Origin: a virus
Virus record (IMG/VR): IMGVR_UViG_3300035670_001145
Coordinates: 1 to 25,694 of that record
Strand: one strand, 5' to 3'
Length of the DNA: 25,694 nt
The position numbers were made by a program, and so were the translations under genes. The notes beneath the pieces were generated by a model. The model did no database searches. It worked only from the letters and a program-made list of their open reading frames with translations, and was not told where the DNA came from. Of this stretch, positions 1-25,494 are shown in pieces; position 1 is the stretch's first letter; each line of letters starts with the position of its first letter.

Positions 1-63
1 GCGATAGAGAAGATCAGAGTAAGCAAGGTTTCCGCCTACTGGAATACCGCCTGTAATACGCAT
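1..63 (-). CDS. 5' end of an unidentified gene (partial)
   Basis: Read on the minus strand, an ATG at 63-61 opens a frame that stays open to the window edge and begins MRITGGIPVGG. A good ribosome site, AGGAAG, lies a few bases upstream of the ATG, which is why I accept it although only 21 codons are visible. It is the next gene downstream of the AbrB-like gene in the late block, so a structural role is possible, but the fragment is too short to name. Confidence 0.6.
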   Translation of the reverse strand, partial: MRITGGIPVGGNLAYSDLLYR

Positions 64-88
64 CTAACTTCCTGTCAATACTTTTATT

Positions 89-271
89 TTACTCTTCTAT
101 AACTTCGTAGCCAGCAGCATCATTGACTTTACTGATGACAATACCATTGCTGCGTACGTCCCAGTTGAGAAGGTCGCCTTCCTGCCAGCCAAGATCTTCG
201 ATTACCTCGTCGGGCAACACAATATATTGATCTCCGTTATCGTCCTCCTGGACCTCGAGGATGTAGCTCAT
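89..271 (-). CDS. AbrB/MazE-like swapped-hairpin protein
   Basis: This 60-aa acidic protein has the pattern of a single AbrB/SpoVT/MazE-type DNA-binding domain: a first strand (YILEVQED), then an 'LP.EVIEDLGWQEGD' segment, then a final strand (GIVISK). Proteins of this fold dimerise and bind DNA as transition-state regulators or antitoxins. Small stand-alone versions are common in cyanophages, where their role is not established. Its ATG overlaps the stop of the upstream 99-aa gene by ATGA, so the two are translationally coupled. No toxin partner is visible next to it, so an antitoxin function is not implied. The family assignment rests on pattern recognition only. Confidence 0.75.
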   Translation of the reverse strand: MSYILEVQEDDNGDQYIVLPDEVIEDLGWQEGDLLNWDVRSNGIVISKVNDAAGYEVIEE

Positions 272-567
272 TTACTCGAAAGCATCGTCTCGATTAGTTT
301 ATCAAGCTTATTATTGATTTCGCGAAAATTGTCACGCATATCTTGAATTTCTCTTAAGAAGTCGACCTTTAAAACGTATTCCATTGGCAGGCGCTTGAGA
401 TCTTCTTCCAAAATATCAATCCTTCTTTTTTGGGAGCCGATGTAATTAAAGGCTTGCTGCACTTGATCACTGTGCCTACTCAAGATTTTAGATGCAGCCC
501 AGCCTCCGCCTGTCACGGCTGATATAACGGCGGTCAAGCCGATAGCTACGTATTCGGGTCCCACCAC
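268..567 (-). CDS. small membrane protein with C-terminal coiled coil
   Basis: 99 aa beginning at GTG 567; no ATG precedes it in frame before a stop. Residues 5-28 (EYVAIGLTAVISAVTGGGWA) are a likely single membrane segment. The rest is charged, with heptad-like spacing ending in REINNKLDKLIETM, typical of a coiled coil. The layout (membrane helix plus coiled coil, about 100 aa) resembles holin- or XhlA-like accessory lysis proteins and also membrane-anchored virion proteins; I cannot choose between them. The stop overlaps the AbrB-like start by four bases. The ribosome site is weak. Before the HNH insertion upstream this gene would have directly followed the terminase. Confidence 0.7.
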   Translation of the reverse strand: MVGPEYVAIGLTAVISAVTGGGWAASKILSRHSDQVQQAFNYIGSQKRRIDILEEDLKRLPMEYVLKVDFLREIQDMRDNFREINNKLDKLIETMLSSK

Positions 568-596
568 TAAATTGCGCTTTTTTCTAATTCTAAAGT

Positions 597-659
597 TTAG
601 TAATCAAGTTGAAGCTGCCCGCGTCGCATCAATCCTGTCAACAAATACACAAGAGCGCT
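597..659 (-). pseudogene. orphan second copy of the terminase C-terminus
   Basis: Immediately after the HNH stop, one frame reads S-ALVYLLTGLM-RRGQLQLDY-stop. The true terminase ends D-ALVYLLTGLM-RKGQLQIDY-stop. From the first Ala to the final Tyr, 17 of 19 residues are identical, but 11 of those 17 use a different codon, and about 20 of 60 nucleotides differ. There is no start codon. This is therefore the old 3' end of a terminase gene left behind after the HNH gene entered with a recoded replacement 3' end, or the reverse. It fills most of the 90-bp gap between the HNH gene and the 99-aa gene. Confidence 0.9.
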
Positions 660-1092
660 AACACTTCTTTGCTTTTTGATTGTAAGTTTTAATTCGATGA
701 CAATTTGCGCATAAAACTTGGCATTTTTCAATCTCTTTCATCAAATTTTTGATGTTTGTAGTATGCATTTTGGCAATATCACGAACTTTGGCGGAAGGGT
801 CTAGATGATCAAAATCAAGTGCAACATGGTGCTCTTTGTAGCCACACATCTCGCAACCGCGTTTTAATTTTTCTTCTTTTATGATTTTTGCATTGCGTTT
901 TTGAGCTCGCTGTGCTGCTTTTGCGCAACCAACTTTTCTTCTTTCCCATGCTTCTGGAGTTAACCAGTTAATCTGAAAGCGGCCATCCTTGTTTAAATTG
1001 GCTTGACGTCTATAAGACAGAAAAATTTTTCCGTCCGCTCTGACCTCTCCATACTTCCATGGATTGCCAGTTTCAGGATTAATCGTTTCCAT
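658..1092 (-). CDS. HNH homing-type endonuclease
   Basis: A 144-aa HNH nuclease. The C-terminal half carries a zinc-bracketed HNH domain: Cys80 and Cys83, the catalytic DFDH at 93-96, and Cys128, Cys131 and His132 (CANCH). The N-terminal 50 residues (NPETGNPWKYGEVRADG...) match the accessory region of many phage free-standing HNH proteins, probably for DNA recognition. The ATG overlaps the terminase stop (TGATG), and its own TAG abuts an orphan copy of the terminase C-terminus. That placement marks it as a mobile endonuclease inserted at the end of the terminase gene. The likely activity is nicking or cutting terminase alleles that lack the insertion. Whether it is active cannot be told from sequence. 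Confidence 0.92.
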   Translation of the reverse strand: METINPETGNPWKYGEVRADGKIFLSYRRQANLNKDGRFQINWLTPEAWERRKVGCAKAAQRAQKRNAKIIKEEKLKRGCEMCGYKEHHVALDFDHLDPSAKVRDIAKMHTTNIKNLMKEIEKCQVLCANCHRIKTYNQKAKKC

Positions 1093-2618
1093 CAGTAGTC
1101 AATCTGAAGTTGGCCTTTACGCATTAGACCTGTAAGAAGATATACTAAAGCATCGACCGTATCGTCGTGACTACTGACGCCGAAATTGGTCAGTTCCTCA
1201 AACATTGCCGTGAAGTTGCGGAAACGATTGAAGATAATCTTGCGGTCTTCAAACATACCCATGCAACCACGGAAACGTGCCAATTTATCTGCACGGAATC
1301 CTTTAACGGCGTGCCAATTAAGATTGTATAAGCTTTCGTTGTTCAGGCAAACGCGTTTGAAATCAGCCTCTAGTGATGCCTGGTACGCAACGGCTTCACT
1401 CCAGATATCACACGTTGAATAAGTTGGGAAATAATTACCGTTTTCATCTTTGCCAAGGATGGACCAGTCGTTAAGGAGTTCCTTGAGTGCATCCAGTTTC
1501 TCTAGGTTACCCATAACACGCAGTCGGCGGTAATCAATAATGTGAATTTGATCACCAATACGTCCACCTAACACCATTACGGTGTAATCGTTTTTCTCTT
1601 TAGTGCCAACAGATAAGTCAACCCCAATACCAAGCGAGTCAAACTCAGTGGCGATTTCAGCTTTAACAATCAGCTCTGGCGCCAGTGACAGCTCATTCTG
1701 GCGGATGACCTGATTCATGTACTGGAAAGAGAAAGCAATTGGTGCTTGCCGTTTCTTTTCCTTTAAGTAGTCCAATGACCACATCGATGGCCAGTAGGAC
1801 ATCTCATCCCCTGTTTCAGGATCATTCAAGATTGCGGAGAGCACAATTTGCAACCAGTTGTTTTGAGGATTGAATGTCGTTGCATGAATGTCATCATGCC
1901 TGAAGCGCGTACCAAGACAGATAGCTCGTCCGCCCTCAAACATGGTTGGTGCGATCACAGCATTCCAGTTATCCTGCATCTGTTTCCGGATGTCAGGGTT
2001 AGAGATATCCGCAGCAGACTTGATGGCGTCATCAATGATGACTAGATGTGAACGTTTGGAAGTCACGGAGCCTTTAAGACCTGCAGCGCAGAGCGTGAAT
2101 TGCTCTTCACCGGTGGTATCGATACCAGCAAACCTATGGTCAATAGACCAGTACTCATTACTGGTGACGTTTTTAAGAAGGCGTACGGTTGGAAATACTT
2201 CTTGGTACCGTTTGCTTTCAATGATGCGTTTAATGGTTGCTGATTTAGAACGCGCAATATCAACCGTATAAGACAAGTAAAGAATCTGCAGTGGCAACTT
2301 GGCAGCGGTATGCACGCCAATAGCCCAGGCGGTAAACAAACCCAAGACTGTGGATTTAGCTGATCCCCGTGGTGCCAGGAGATCTACATTTGGTCCTGCA
2401 ATCTTGCGTAAACAGCTACTGTCTTCGTTAGTGACAAAGTGACGGTGCCATTCTTTGTGGTGATCGGCCGGAGGTTTATCTGCTACGTACTCACAAAAAA
2501 ATCCGAAATCTTCCCTTGCTTTTTCCAGGGATTCAAGATTTCGGGGAACACGTATTTGTTGCCTGCGAGCAGCAGCTTGTGCATTACGTCGGTAAGCAAG
2601 ATGTTGGTAAGCAGGCAC
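1092..2618 (-). CDS. terL: terminase large subunit
   Basis: 508 aa, normal length for TerL, the motor-nuclease that packages DNA into the prohead. The ATPase half shows a Walker A APRGSAKST (82-90), a Walker B LVIIDD (192-197) and a coupling-type GTRFRHDD (236-243). The RNase H-like nuclease half shows Asp334 in IGVDLSVG, Asp404 in STCDIWSE, and the HDD..D pair near 484-489. The start is GTG at 2618; an in-frame stop lies just upstream and there is no ATG. The gene is preceded by small charged proteins and followed, with a TGATG overlap, by an HNH endonuclease. The last 20 codons look like a replacement 3' end: a recoded second copy lies beyond the HNH gene. Confidence 0.97.
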   Translation of the reverse strand: MPAYQHLAYRRNAQAAARRQQIRVPRNLESLEKAREDFGFFCEYVADKPPADHHKEWHRHFVTNEDSSCLRKIAGPNVDLLAPRGSAKSTVLGLFTAWAIGVHTAAKLPLQILYLSYTVDIARSKSATIKRIIESKRYQEVFPTVRLLKNVTSNEYWSIDHRFAGIDTTGEEQFTLCAAGLKGSVTSKRSHLVIIDDAIKSAADISNPDIRKQMQDNWNAVIAPTMFEGGRAICLGTRFRHDDIHATTFNPQNNWLQIVLSAILNDPETGDEMSYWPSMWSLDYLKEKKRQAPIAFSFQYMNQVIRQNELSLAPELIVKAEIATEFDSLGIGVDLSVGTKEKNDYTVMVLGGRIGDQIHIIDYRRLRVMGNLEKLDALKELLNDWSILGKDENGNYFPTYSTCDIWSEAVAYQASLEADFKRVCLNNESLYNLNWHAVKGFRADKLARFRGCMGMFEDRKIIFNRFRNFTAMFEELTNFGVSSHDDTVDALVYLLTGLMRKGQLQIDY

Positions 2619-2648
2619 AGTAGTTATTGTTCAGTGTATTACTGAATA

Positions 2649-2999
2649 CTACCTCATTCTTCGTCCTGCTTGCCCTTCTTTTGCTCTTTGTACTTGCGAG
2701 CTTTGTCCAATGCCGCCTTCCTCTTCTCCTTGTCCGACATCTCGCTGCCGTCCTTGTTCTTTGCCTCTTTCTTCTTGAAGTGCTCCAGGAGTTCCGGAGG
2801 CATTTTGTTCTTGCTCATCTTGTTTTTTGTTTTGTAAAGCAGCAATTACTTGTTCGCCTTCCGCAACTTTATCAATGAAAGGAGTGGGACGACGAAAGCC
2901 GGAAAGCCGCTCTCTATTCTTTTGAAGTTGACGAGCAACATCAAATAGTTTTCCAGCGATATTTTCCCCGTATTGAGGTTGTTGAGCTGGTTGGTTCAT
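2649..2999 (-). CDS. hypothetical protein with overlapping-frame tail
   Basis: 116 aa from an ATG at 2999, 18 bp after the 190-aa gene. Residues 1-60 (MNQPAQQPQYGENIAGKLFD...) look like a genuine soluble protein, with a helix rich in Gln, Arg and Lys. From about residue 61 the frame overlaps the small basic gene 2654-2818 for 165 bp and turns into a Gly/Gln/Glu-rich low-complexity tail, which is what an out-of-frame reading of a Lys-rich gene gives. The simplest view is a real gene whose original stop was lost, so that it now runs through its neighbour. No function is assigned. Confidence 0.5.
   Translation of the reverse strand: MNQPAQQPQYGENIAGKLFDVARQLQKNRERLSGFRRPTPFIDKVAEGEQVIAALQNKKQDEQEQNASGTPGALQEERGKEQGRQRDVGQGEEEGGIGQSSQVQRAKEGQAGRRMR
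2654..2818 (-). CDS. small very basic, Lys-rich protein
   Basis: 54 aa, beginning MSKNKMPPELLEHFKKK and rich in Lys, Glu and Asp throughout. The 'MPPELLEHFKKK' opening resembles small hypothetical proteins I associate with cyanophages. I use the ATG at 2818; a longer reading would need a TTG start at 2845. The gene lies entirely inside the 3' part of the 116-aa frame 2649-2999 in another frame. Of the two, this one has the more protein-like composition over the shared stretch. It directly precedes the terminase. The function is unknown; binding to nucleic acid is possible from charge alone. No clear ribosome site. Confidence 0.6.
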   Translation of the reverse strand: MSKNKMPPELLEHFKKKEAKNKDGSEMSDKEKRKAALDKARKYKEQKKGKQDEE

Positions 3000-3017
3000 T
3001 TTACAAGTCTAAGATAT

Positions 3018-5517: not shown

Positions 5518-5952
5518 TTAACCACGCATTCGCGTTGCAAGACCCTGGAGGTAAGGATCAAATTTTCCAGAGAGAGCAAAGGCTTCTCCGAAATCCTGCC
5601 TACCCTTTGCTTGGAATAAAGGAGTGCGCATAAAACCATAGCCCTCCATAAGAGACTGGGCTTGTGCAGCACGCTCCTTGTCGCGCATCCAGGTATCAAA
5701 GCCCCAATTACGCACCAGTTGTTCTTCAGCTGCGTTGATGGCGTCTCGTTGGGACTGCTGACCCATAAGACCGCCACCGATGCCGGCCAGGGCTTGAATG
5801 CCTGCGGATGCTGCCATCCATGGTCCTAATGCCATTGATCCTGCTCCTGTTGCTGCTGTGGTCGTAGCGGCACTTCCTGCACCTGACATTGCTGCTCCGC
5901 CACCAAAGATGTCGGGAAAAAATTGAGCAATTGAACCGGCGCTTCCTGCCAT
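5518..5952 (-). CDS. Gly/Ala-rich internal virion protein candidate
   Basis: 144 aa. I take the ATG at 5952 because the longer reading would need a TTG at 5958. Residues 18-70 are extremely Gly/Ala/Met-rich and hydrophobic (GGGAAMSGAGSAATTTAATG onward), able to insert in a membrane. A helical amphipathic part follows (QQSQRDAINAAEEQLVRN). A hydrophobic Gly/Ala segment followed by a helical half resembles small internal/ejection proteins of podovirus-type phages such as T7 gp14. That similarity is by architecture only. Confidence 0.65.
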   Translation of the reverse strand: MAGSAGSIAQFFPDIFGGGAAMSGAGSAATTTAATGAGSMALGPWMAASAGIQALAGIGGGLMGQQSQRDAINAAEEQLVRNWGFDTWMRDKERAAQAQSLMEGYGFMRTPLFQAKGRQDFGEAFALSGKFDPYLQGLATRMRG

Positions 5953-5963
5953 TGCCAAAACGT

Positions 5964-5979
5964 TATTGTTTTATTTTAA
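5964..5979 (-). promoter_or_regulatory. possible late promoter box ahead of the Gly/Ala-rich gene
   Basis: Minus strand TTAAAATAAAACAATA, sharing the TTAAAATA core with other gaps in the late block. It sits between the stop of the 158-aa gene and the start of the next. Confidence 0.25.
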
Positions 5980-6452
5980 CCGACAAAACTGTAGTAATTA
6001 GGGATGCCGTACCCAGGGAGGGACCTGTTGGCTGCATTAGCTGCGATCTGAATGCGCTCAGGTGCATAACGCTGGCCCTGGCTAAATGCATTACCAATCG
6101 CGGCGGGAACATCAACAAGGAACGAACGCATCACTGCATCTTCCCTTGCAAGTTTTTTGGCTTCCAGGGATTCTTCCCTGCGTTGCTTTAGCATATCTTG
6201 CATGAACTCACGATTTGCCTGACGAGATTGCTCAGCATTTAAACCCTGCAATCCCATAAGGCTATAGAGCATGCGATCTTCACCAGTGATATCGCTTGGG
6301 ATATTAGTAAGAAAACCACGTACAGCGTCCATGTATCCGCCGGCAAGCGGATAAGGTTGAGATGCGCCATAACCCTGTCCGGGTTTAGGAAAAGCCATTT
6401 GATTCCAAACGGGGCCAGCATTGAAAGGCTGTCCTTGCGCGTAGGAAGCCAT
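5976..6452 (-). CDS. hypothetical virion-associated protein, 158 aa
   Basis: 158 aa. Its ATG shares one base with the stop of the 269-aa gene, and GGAGG lies a few bases upstream. The N-terminal 60 residues are Gly/Pro/Tyr-rich and probably disordered; residues 70-115 are charged helix (EQSRQANREFMQDMLKQRRE). It ends in an aromatic/Gly segment (GIPNYYSFVG). It belongs to a run of structurally similar Ala/Gly/Gln-rich proteins that probably make one internal or tail-tip assembly. No catalytic motif. Confidence 0.7.
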   Translation of the reverse strand: MASYAQGQPFNAGPVWNQMAFPKPGQGYGASQPYPLAGGYMDAVRGFLTNIPSDITGEDRMLYSLMGLQGLNAEQSRQANREFMQDMLKQRREESLEAKKLAREDAVMRSFLVDVPAAIGNAFSQGQRYAPERIQIAANAANRSLPGYGIPNYYSFVG

Positions 6453-20630: not shown

Positions 20631-22358
20631 ATGCAATTTGCTCTGCCTTCCAACTTGCAAACTGAACTGCTTGCCTATGATCCAAAGCGCAAGGCTTTGG
20701 CTAAGCAACAACAGGCCAACAAACCAAGTGCTAAACCTAAATATCCACTTGGTAAGATTCCTTGTCTGATTCCAACGAATGTTGTACGTGAAGCAGATCA
20801 GCTAGCGGCTATCGAACGCATCAATCAGCAACCTGCACCACAGAGGTACCAGGTGTTTACTACGCCTGTGGATGTAGCAACTCCGCAGGCCAGACTCAAA
20901 GTCATTGCCATCCTGTATCACTATGAACAGGTGTGGTATGCAGCATGGTTACCTCCCAAGCAGGAGAAAGATCAGTACATCTATGGTCATGCGTATGCAT
21001 TCAAGAACACATCCGCAGCAGCAAATACTGCACCTAATTGGATATGGAACAGCAAAGATAAGTGCATCATGCACGACATCGGTCGTGGTTCTCAACTCTT
21101 TACGTATATCAAGAATATAACAAGAGATGAGATCACAGCTACCGATGGTAATGGCTGGACTAGTTACCAGTGGAAAGCAGCTAATCTTTTCCAGCGGAAG
21201 GGATATGAAATCCGTGACAATGCTGTGCATCAATTCGAAGCAAGCCTAAGGGAAGACCTGCCAACATGGGAGGATTCACGTGGTTTGTTTGATCGCATCC
21301 GCTGCAAGAACATCTTTGATGCAGCAGGTATTCCACACATGACGTCAAGATACCTTGATGTCGAACGTGGTCTTACTGTTGAGAATTTTATTGATGGTGC
21401 AATTAAATTTAATGAAGAGAGTTGTGTTTCATTTACATACACATCTGTTGTAAAACTAACTCACATTATTACTAAACCTGCAATCCGTAAGCTATTACAA
21501 GAAGAACTTGATCGCAGCATCACCGCATATAACAATCCTAATAATAGGAATCAGCTACCTATTAAACAAGGCTTCAACACTTTTGTTCAGATCATTAACT
21601 CTATTGATTGGATCAATGACATCTGGCCTGACTGTCCTATTGATTATTATCAAACTTACTTTAAAGAACTGAAGTACATTCGATTGAATCAGGTGCGTGT
21701 ATGTAATGTTAACAACCAGTCAGTATTGATTCCTTGGTTACGTGAGCACATGCCAGTTGCATCTATGTTCACAATCATGCGTAAGTATCTTGAGCAGGAT
21801 GAGCCTAGCCGTTGGACTGACAACGAAGTTGGTTATGCACGCCAGGGATTCTATCAGCTCAACGATACATTCTCAATGATCATTCGCATCCTAAGTAATG
21901 ACAAAACACTTGAGCCTCCTAAGCGTTGGCGCCTGACTGAGTTCCACGACTATGTGCAAGCAGAGTCTTGGAAGATTGAGAATCCTAAGGAAACACTACG
22001 TCAAGATCTATTCCCTGAACCCATTAAGGTGAAGCGTCAAGATGAAGTGTGGACTTTCATCCAGCCTTTTGATACTCACCAGCTAGCAATGTGGGGCCAG
22101 GCTGTACGCAACTGCGTTGGCTCGGCATCACACTATGCGGAAGATATTAAGAAACGTAAACACTTCATTGTGTTGTGCATGGTTGACGGCAAGCCCACCT
22201 TCACAATCCAACTGGTTGTGGATCAGGGCGTTATGTCTGTCAAGCAGATTGCTGGCGTTGCCAACAGGAGTCTGGACTGTCAGCAGCGTGAGGCCTATAC
22301 CGAGGCATTCCGTGAGGCGTTGCAACTCCGTGAATCTGCGCTAGCATCTGAGAGCTGA
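20631..22358 (+). CDS. PcfJ-like protein, 575 aa
   Basis: The largest gene of the right arm. The C-terminal 100 residues carry the PcfJ-like signature: 'LAMWGQAVRNCVGSASHYA', then 'FIVLCMVDGKPTFTIQLVV', then 'VKQIAGVANRSLD'. PcfJ-type proteins are found on conjugative plasmids and in many phages, and their activity is unknown. The first 380 residues are a long region without a motif I recognise, with an early basic part (DPKRKALAKQQQANKPSAKP). The ATG follows leader TTTACCTACACTACACC after a motif B pseudoknot, without Shine-Dalgarno. A stand-alone transcription unit. The family call is good; a role in replication or DNA transfer would be a guess. Confidence 0.8.
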   Translation: MQFALPSNLQTELLAYDPKRKALAKQQQANKPSAKPKYPLGKIPCLIPTNVVREADQLAAIERINQQPAPQRYQVFTTPVDVATPQARLKVIAILYHYEQVWYAAWLPPKQEKDQYIYGHAYAFKNTSAAANTAPNWIWNSKDKCIMHDIGRGSQLFTYIKNITRDEITATDGNGWTSYQWKAANLFQRKGYEIRDNAVHQFEASLREDLPTWEDSRGLFDRIRCKNIFDAAGIPHMTSRYLDVERGLTVENFIDGAIKFNEESCVSFTYTSVVKLTHIITKPAIRKLLQEELDRSITAYNNPNNRNQLPIKQGFNTFVQIINSIDWINDIWPDCPIDYYQTYFKELKYIRLNQVRVCNVNNQSVLIPWLREHMPVASMFTIMRKYLEQDEPSRWTDNEVGYARQGFYQLNDTFSMIIRILSNDKTLEPPKRWRLTEFHDYVQAESWKIENPKETLRQDLFPEPIKVKRQDEVWTFIQPFDTHQLAMWGQAVRNCVGSASHYAEDIKKRKHFIVLCMVDGKPTFTIQLVVDQGVMSVKQIAGVANRSLDCQQREAYTEAFREALQLRESALASES

Positions 22359-23458: not shown

Positions 23459-23788
23459 ATGATCAGTTCATTGCAATCAGAAACAGCAACAGATGTAATG
23501 CAACTTATTGCAGATTGTATTCCAGATTCCGAATGGTATCGGGTACGCAATGCAATTGTTGAACGCATTGTTGATAACATGCCAGGTGAAATTTTATTCA
23601 GGTTGACAAACAGCCATGATGACTTTGATTTGGCTGAGATTATTCTTAAAACTCATTACGAAGAGTCTCCAAATGTTGAATTAATTGCCGATGCATTTAA
23701 GCTCATTGGCTCTGAGCAAACAGCAGATCTTCTCGATTCATTGAACATTCAAGAAACAGATGGCATTTCAAAAGGCAATCCTTCCTGA
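23459..23788 (+). CDS. acidic helical hypothetical protein, 109 aa
   Basis: 109 aa from ATG 23459; a start at 23423 would read through the terminator hairpin. Helical repeats (VMQLIADCIPDSEWYRVRNA; DLAEIILKTHYEESPNVELI; AFKLIGSEQTADLLDSL) suggest a small alpha-helical bundle. It overlaps the zinc-ribbon gene by 29 bp. Because the terminator leaves no room for the usual leader, this gene may depend on a promoter inside or just before the hairpin. Function unknown. Confidence 0.72.
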   Translation: MISSLQSETATDVMQLIADCIPDSEWYRVRNAIVERIVDNMPGEILFRLTNSHDDFDLAEIILKTHYEESPNVELIADAFKLIGSEQTADLLDSLNIQETDGISKGNPS

Positions 23789-24131
23789 CTGCCCTGAATG
23801 TAAACAACCTGGACTCAGAGTTATTGAATCAAGGAAGACTGATCTATCTACAAGACGCAGAAAGAAATGTGATTACTGTGGCTACAAGGTTACAACCCAT
23901 GAAGTTACAGCAGACTTCTTTGAAGAAGCCAAGCAGAATCAAATTCTGGTTAAGCAAATGCGTAATCTTCTTGGTGCAGACCTACCCATTCCTGGGGTAG
24001 AACCACCCCAGATGGGGGTGGAAATCAAATGTGACGAATGCGTGCACAACAATGGCAAGCGTTGTGCATTTGACTTTCCAGAGTACGGCACAGATGAGTC
24101 GTATGATTGCAATCAGTATTCACTACCATGA
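23760..24131 (+). CDS. NrdR-like zinc-ribbon protein, 123 aa
   Basis: Residues 11-48 (CPECKQPGLRVIESRKTDLS, then TRRRKKCDYCGYKVTTHE) match the zinc ribbon of NrdR, the repressor of ribonucleotide reductase genes: Cys11, Cys14, Cys37, Cys40, an SR pair and RRR..C..CG. The ATP-cone domain that senses nucleotides in NrdR is absent. Instead there is a second Cys cluster near the C-terminus (KCDECVHNNGKRC ... YDCNQY). So it is a phage DNA-binding ribbon rather than a true NrdR. Being near thyX fits control of nucleotide metabolism, but no nrd gene is in the window. Confidence 0.75.
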   Translation: MAFQKAILPDCPECKQPGLRVIESRKTDLSTRRRKKCDYCGYKVTTHEVTADFFEEAKQNQILVKQMRNLLGADLPIPGVEPPQMGVEIKCDECVHNNGKRCAFDFPEYGTDESYDCNQYSLP

Positions 24132-24779: not shown

Positions 24780-24976
24780 AAGATCTTAGACCTTTTATTG
24801 CTGCAGCAATTCTTTTCTTTGGGTTTTTGCTTTTGTTTTATGGAATCTTTTTTACTGATAAACCTTATGCAGAAAACTCAGCTAAGTTCCAGGTGATTGA
24901 CACCTATCAAGGTTGTGACGTAATCAAGTACACTGATCCAACACAACGCTGGCACTACTTCCTTAAATGCTCATGA
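24776..24976 (+). CDS. small single-span membrane protein, 66 aa
   Basis: 66 aa: basic start (MKDLR), hydrophobic helix at 6-27 (PFIAAAILFFGFLLLFYGIF), then a 38-residue soluble part with two Cys (YQGCDVIKY ... YFLKCS). It is the third protein of this layout in the array (compare 14472 and 15295): membrane anchor plus paired Cys. Coupled by ATGA to both neighbours. Outside topology is likely if the Cys form a disulfide. Confidence 0.75.
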   Translation: MKDLRPFIAAAILFFGFLLLFYGIFFTDKPYAENSAKFQVIDTYQGCDVIKYTDPTQRWHYFLKCS

Positions 24977-25494
24977 ACAAAATATGCACTCGATGCAAAC
25001 AATTAAAACCAATTAATCTTTTTCCTTGTGTATCCAGAGAGAACAGAAAACCTAGAGCACAATGCAAGCAATGTTGTGCAGAAAAACAAAGACAAACTTA
25101 TGCAAGCAAGCCACAACAATATCGCAATTACGTTAAAAAAAGGCGCATTAAATATAACAACGTACACAAAAGAATAGCTAATCTTAAAACATTCGGTTTA
25201 ACAATTGAAGATTATGAAACAATGTTGAAAAGTCAAAATAAACAATGCGCTATTTGTGGTACACTACAATGCACATCTGGAAAGAGGTTGGCCATTGACC
25301 ATTGCCATTTAACCGGTAGGATACGTGGACTCCTTTGCCTAAGATGCAACCAAGCAATTGGTAAATTTAACGACAACTACTTTCTTTTACAACAAGCTGC
25401 AGACTATGTGTCAGGTCAAGTTAGTGTGGGCCACCCCGAACGCAGAAAACCTGATTGTGGAAATGGCAAGGGTATCGAATCCCAAGAACGCTAA
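24973..25494 (+). CDS. endonuclease VII-type HNH nuclease with out-of-frame tail
   Basis: 173 aa from ATG 24973 (ATGA overlap; ATG 24967 also possible). Two zinc pairs come first (Cys5/Cys8, Cys31/Cys34). The endonuclease VII domain follows: '[20 protein letters not shown]' (Cys92/Cys95), DHCH (Asp109, His110, His112) and LLCLRCN (Cys122, Cys125, Asn126). Family members normally end just after the AADY helix (here residue 145). The remaining 28 residues are encoded by the first codons of thyX in another frame. That suggests the nuclease was inserted here without its own stop. It may be a homing nuclease guarding thyX, or a resolvase-like enzyme. Confidence 0.88.

Follow-up and report, generated by a model that had tools for sequence, protein, structure and literature searches.

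How does a phage terminase gene come to have two ends, one on either side of a nuclease gene? The question is raised by a 25,694-nt stretch of viral DNA (IMG/VR record IMGVR_UViG_3300035670_001145; hereafter the window, meaning the whole of this stretch) from an uncultured relative of Synechococcus phage S-EIV1. On its minus strand lies terL (1092..2618), which encodes a terminase large subunit of 508 aa from a GTG start (Terminase_6C, E = 2.3e-8; phrog_38, E = 3e-74; 83.7% amino acid identity to the S-EIV1 terL) and ends in ...ALVYLLTGLMRKGQLQIDY-TGA. In the sequence TGATG (1094-1090) this stop overlaps the ATG of an HNH endonuclease gene of 144 aa on the same strand (658..1092; PF01844, E = 3.6e-5; phrog_3106, E = 4.6e-32), and the TAG stop of that gene (660-658) is followed by one C and then, at 656-597, by a second terL end, ALVYLLTGLMRRGQLQLDY-TAA, which has no start codon and is probably untranslated (feature 597..657, minus strand). 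The two tails agree in 17 of 19 residues, 11 of these 17 are written with different codons, and 38 of 57 nucleotides are the same. The earlier note on this DNA had described the stop-start overlap, the startless second tail and these residue and codon counts, and our reading of the sequence reproduces all of them exactly. Among 300 shuffles of the region the best 19-residue match reached only 8, and a tblastn search with terL recovered the second copy at 600-677 (E = 1.4e-6).

Relatives indicate which of the two ends is native. We gathered 162 distinct terL 3' ends from IMG/VR through HNH-driven, pattern-driven and terL-driven scans; this HNH family follows terL directly in 33 of them, all metagenomic contigs, so that a single site is patchily occupied in the manner of intronless homing. 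A leftover second tail stands behind the HNH gene in 28 of the 33; in four loci (the L042 type) the leftover has shrunk to about TTGATTACTAA, and one HNH-bearing locus (L159) is cut by the contig end. Among the 129 ends that lack the HNH gene, a second tail was seen in one alone (L099), where ~20 nt from the start of a deleted HNH gene also survive. In the first 80 IMG/VR relatives (87-98% amino acid identity) terL is nearly always joined directly to a gene of 99 aa, its fixed right-hand neighbour (268..567 in the window, minus strand; phrog_462, E = 1e-10), the gap being 26-39 nt in nearly all HNH-less relatives, and in their choice of codons the terL ends of HNH-less relatives resemble the downstream copy of the window. 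This is what the earlier note had proposed to look for, and it implies that the native end is the downstream one, the upstream tail having arrived with the HNH gene. Empty sites occur in close relatives, with HNH-less terL bodies up to 97.8% identical, and the terL tree requires at least 21 changes between presence and absence of the gene. Two variations of the layout were also seen: some close relatives (L005, L016, L017 and L033) carry a gene of 230-253 aa without a Pfam match between terL and the 99-aa gene, and in L133 and L134 the HNH gene and the leftover tail, tightly joined at other loci, are set apart by ~200 nt of extra sequence.

The HNH protein has the features of a homing endonuclease. 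Its domain scores above the PF01844 cut-off, and the motif CxxC...DFDH...CxxCH, with its metal-binding and catalytic residues, is intact in 32 of the 33 loci, the remaining one being cut by a contig end. In 24 of the 33 loci the HNH start lies directly on the terL stop, in 23 of these as TGATG or TAATG, and translation of the nuclease is therefore probably coupled to that of terL. No relatives of the family were found by sequence in the PDB at E up to 0.01. The closest homologues in isolates, at ~40% identity, are HNH genes situated after gene 1.7 in T7-like phages (EFA-2, KP34); that of EFA-2 overlaps the end of its upstream gene as in the terL element, but unlike the terL element the EFA-2/KP34 type has no second end of the upstream gene after the nuclease gene. 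Nor did other HNH loci and five phage isolates yield a convincing leftover of the gene upstream of the nuclease. One locus (L089) has a second HNH gene of the same family (5907-6347, 46% identity) ~1.9 kb downstream of its terL element, and around this gene there is no sign of a duplicated gene end.

Movement of the upstream tail together with the HNH gene is recorded in pairs of loci whose terminases are otherwise diverged. Between L139 and L141 the terL bodies are 81% identical, the tails 100%, the HNH genes 99%, the leftover tails 80% and the next genes 78%, and the shared island, whose bounds relative to the terL stop are -72 and +437 (510 nt with 5 differences, p = 9e-32), identifies the recoded tail plus the HNH gene as the unit that moved. 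A second pair, L103 and L112, combines 83% identity in the body with 98-99% in the unit, and a third, L120 and L121, has an identical core of 520 nt. Distances between HNH genes are uncorrelated with those between terL bodies (r = 0.09, p = 0.25); the tails follow the HNH gene (partial r = 0.36, p = 0.0025) and the leftovers follow the terL body (partial r = 0.48, p = 0.003). The window clusters by terL with L022 and L035, and L022 falls outside a well-supported HNH clade of 11 rows that contains the other two. The transfer islands and discordant trees show that the element has moved horizontally and independently of its host gene, and the islands bear out the proposal that tail and nuclease travel as one unit between diverged terL lineages. 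In one further locus (L166, region 1-2268) a distant HNH gene (40% identity) interrupts terL ~75 codons from its stop and is accompanied by a recoded tail of 75 codons and a leftover native end of the same length; L166 is a second, independent insertion site, in which the carried tail is as long as an insertion farther upstream requires.

What this unit carries is a terminase end written in unusual codons. When the comparison with the nearest HNH-less relative is limited to agreeing residues, the leftover tail has a codon identity of 0.540 and the upstream tail one of 0.289, as against 0.559 in a control between native ends; the leftover is the closer of the two to the nearest native in 24 of 28 loci, and the upstream tail in 4. 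(Unaligned comparisons of the body are degraded by indels in L127, L128, L130, L131, L146 and L149, a problem that aligned analyses avoid.) The boundary is sharp: HNH-bearing loci resemble the controls up to codon -23 and are low from codon -22 to the stop, falling from 0.78 (-26..-23) to 0.25 (-22..-19), whereas the controls pass from 0.69 to 0.60. In the window the recoded end, 1092..1160 on the minus strand, accordingly comprises codons -22 to -1 (ACG GTC GAT GCT TTA GTA ...) plus the TGA, and only 2 of 19 codons are the same as in the nearest HNH-less relative. At codon -22 most elements have ACG or ACT (Thr) in place of TGY (Cys); TTA GTA at -18/-17 is found in 25 of 33 HNH-bearing ends (L151 is one that lacks it) and in none of the 112 ends that lack the HNH gene and have Cys at -22; and codon -2, GAT in 61 of 61 thinned native alleles, is often GAC in element tails. 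These patterns mark the recoded tail as specific to the element rather than a copy of any sampled native terL.

The earlier note had held that the two ends came from diverged terminases and that a homing element bearing a foreign terL end had invaded the gene while keeping the protein whole. The architecture, the empty sites and the joint transfer uphold the invasion, and the unit does move between diverged terL lineages; the foreign origin of the tail stands only in part, since its codons look element-specific and match no native terL that we sampled, and its amino acids are close to those of its own leftover (0.926, against 0.726 for other loci). A fresh foreign arrival would not need such a fit, which could reflect a bias of transfer towards compatible lineages, selection, or adaptation after arrival. 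The same closeness favours a more local history, in which the terL end was duplicated in place, the HNH gene inserted, and the upstream copy then changed at an accelerated rate at synonymous sites because self-cutting or recombination between the repeats was selected against, the element seldom moving horizontally. However, tails share codons with each other (0.457) more than with their own leftovers (0.307, compared with 0.277 for the leftovers of other loci), and the three transfer islands and the discordant trees speak against a largely stationary element. We thus consider local duplication improbable, and as the sole explanation it is contradicted by the L139/L141 island, although the first recoded tail may have originated in this way. 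The second rival sees in the HNH protein not a homing enzyme but a partner of the terminase in packaging, of the HK97 gp74 or HrdP type, and draws on the protein's position beside terL, its translational coupling and the existence of such proteins (PMC12724721, PMC10448857). Packaging HNH proteins would be expected in essentially all members of a phage group, but 129 of the 162 terL ends of this family do without it, it has been gained or lost at least 21 times, and a packaging role leaves both the recoded tail and the leftover unexplained; we regard it as very unlikely. Although introns do occur in phage terL, as in ICP1 (PMC10448857), we give hardly any credence to a group I intron or other spliced insertion, because Rfam detected no group I intron RNA core around the nuclease gene, and no match at all, up to E = 1 (1-3000), the upstream copy already completes the protein, and there is no room for an intron core between the HNH gene and the two tails. 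An assembly chimera of two terL alleles, suggested by the metagenomic origin of all the contigs, is just as implausible and is contradicted by the layout's independent recurrence: many contigs, drawn from many samples, show it with junctions and HNH sequences of their own.

We thus conclude, with high confidence, that the element at this locus is a free-standing homing element of the HNH type and that it moves as a unit made up of the recoded last 22 codons of terL and the HNH gene. Counting against this reading are the closeness of the tail amino acids to the phage's own leftover, the almost vanished leftover of the L042 type, the lack of TTA GTA in L151, the four loci in which the upstream tail is the nearer to a native end, and the purely metagenomic origin of the HNH-bearing examples. 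The S-EIV1 terL itself (L116, KJ410740.1, 2501-5041), annotated only as terminase, is interrupted in frame after residue ~199 by ~330 aa that include an intein splicing domain (PF14890, E = 1.4e-11), and mobile nuclease-type elements of two or more kinds have therefore struck the terL of this group. Elsewhere in the window, on the plus strand, there is a second nuclease gene, of endonuclease VII type (24967-25494; phrog_2633), whose 3' end overlaps the start of thyX (~25406 onward; PF02511) in another frame; it is possibly a second homing gene, beside a gene of nucleotide metabolism, and no duplicated thyX start was found around it (24967-25494). Also on the plus strand are genes for a 575-aa protein with a PcfJ-like domain (20631-22358; PF14284, phrog_16315) and for a small protein with an NrdR-like zinc ribbon N-terminus (23760-24131; PF22811).

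The leftover tail shows what becomes of the displaced native end. Its ratio of nonsynonymous to synonymous changes, 79:103 compared with 56:308 in natives, indicates relaxed constraint, which fits untranslated relics of no great age, and poorly sampled lineages may add part of the excess. Codons -3 to -1 of native terL are unusually fixed (0.89, against 0.45-0.64 just upstream), and the conserved GATTACTAAACTTTAGAATTAGAAAAAAG to which they belong (577..605 in the window, minus strand, where it has one exact site), spanning the native stop and the intergenic gap, survives in even the shortest leftovers and probably serves the next gene as a cis signal. The conserved flank TTGATT...TAGAAT was set aside as a sigma-70 promoter candidate, its spacing being only ~9 nt.

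Some HNH-less alleles contain recoded codons. In several (L036, L038, L097, L104, L115 and others) the recoding extends from -22 to about -15 and then gives way to native-like codons; in L059, L095 and L105 most of a recoded tail persists; and L099/L106 and L032 retain remains of deletion. One of them, L104, has the same flank as the HNH-bearing L086, and its codons switch in mid-tail from the tail type to the leftover type, the pattern that recombination between the two tail copies would produce. These alleles look like scars or cut-resistant alleles, and, if the recoded codons are the target, they should resist the nuclease. Because several were found by the scan for the recoded block, which selects such alleles, their frequency is not to be read from that scan; among the 124 ends assigned to the terL-driven scans (shared loci counted once, HNH-bearing ends undercounted) 5 are of this kind.

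One could thus envision the following cycle. In a mixed infection, the HNH protein would cut an HNH-less terL near the conserved codons TGY-GTN-GAY-GCN-YTN-GTN-TGG (DDCVDALVW), and recombinational repair would copy the tail and HNH gene from the HNH-bearing genome, with upstream terL serving as one homology arm and the leftover native tail as the right arm. The recoded tail, in which the cleavage target is presumably changed, would keep the essential protein whole while removing the site and so making the carrier immune, and the leftover would preserve the conserved GATTACTAA...TTAGAATTAGAAA stretch, or cis signal, before the next gene. In HomeR, an engineered home-and-rescue drive, the inserted rescue version is likewise said to be designed to escape cutting by its own nuclease.

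The earlier note had pointed to fungal mitochondria for C-terminal replacement by mobile nuclease genes, and the precedent is real: foreign C-termini are carried on mobile nuclease ORFs in atp6 of Allomyces and in atp6, atp9, cox2 and nad3 of Glomus (PMC3630166). As there, a nuclease gene comes with an in-frame C-terminus that completes the host gene, the native C-terminus is left downstream of the nuclease gene, the native copy stays near relatives, and the inserted copy has diverged mostly at synonymous sites (PMC3630166). The fungal nucleases are LAGLIDADG or GIY-YIG enzymes of mitochondrial hosts, whereas this is an HNH protein in a phage packaging gene, and the phage element, unlike the fungal case, comes with many alleles, joint-transfer islands and scar alleles; it works like the fungal type and is not a member of it by descent. 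It resembles free-standing phage homing endonucleases (T4 SegF-type intronless homing; PMC2988022, PMC12724721) in being free-standing, patchy, fixed in site and placed beside an essential gene, and free-standing phage nucleases near terminases are common (PMC10448857). By analogy it may also be compared with HomeR, in which, in outline, an essential gene is targeted and restored on insertion (PMC7968924). The drive so outlined is CRISPR-based, engineered and housed in Drosophila (PMC7968924), whereas the terL element is natural, viral and HNH-based, with a nuclease specificity that we infer.

We found no report, in open PMC papers, of free-standing phage homing elements that carry the recoded end of the gene they invade, and as far as this literature goes no earlier phage example is on record of a homing element that rescues an essential gene through a recoded gene end. 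Near-synonymous second gene ends beside nuclease genes should hence not be dismissed as duplications or assembly errors. We think it somewhat more probable than otherwise that these elements, L166 included, form a natural family of home-and-rescue drives in phages, in which codons would evolve to escape the element's own nuclease and repeat recombination, amino acids would stay fitted to each lineage, and populations would answer with cut-resistant recombinant alleles. The locus makes questions about home-and-rescue drives testable, namely how far recoding must reach, how a rescue adapts to new backgrounds and how resistance originates, and its natural alleles (native, drive, deleted drive, and recoded without the drive) are enough to follow invasion and resistance in the wild.
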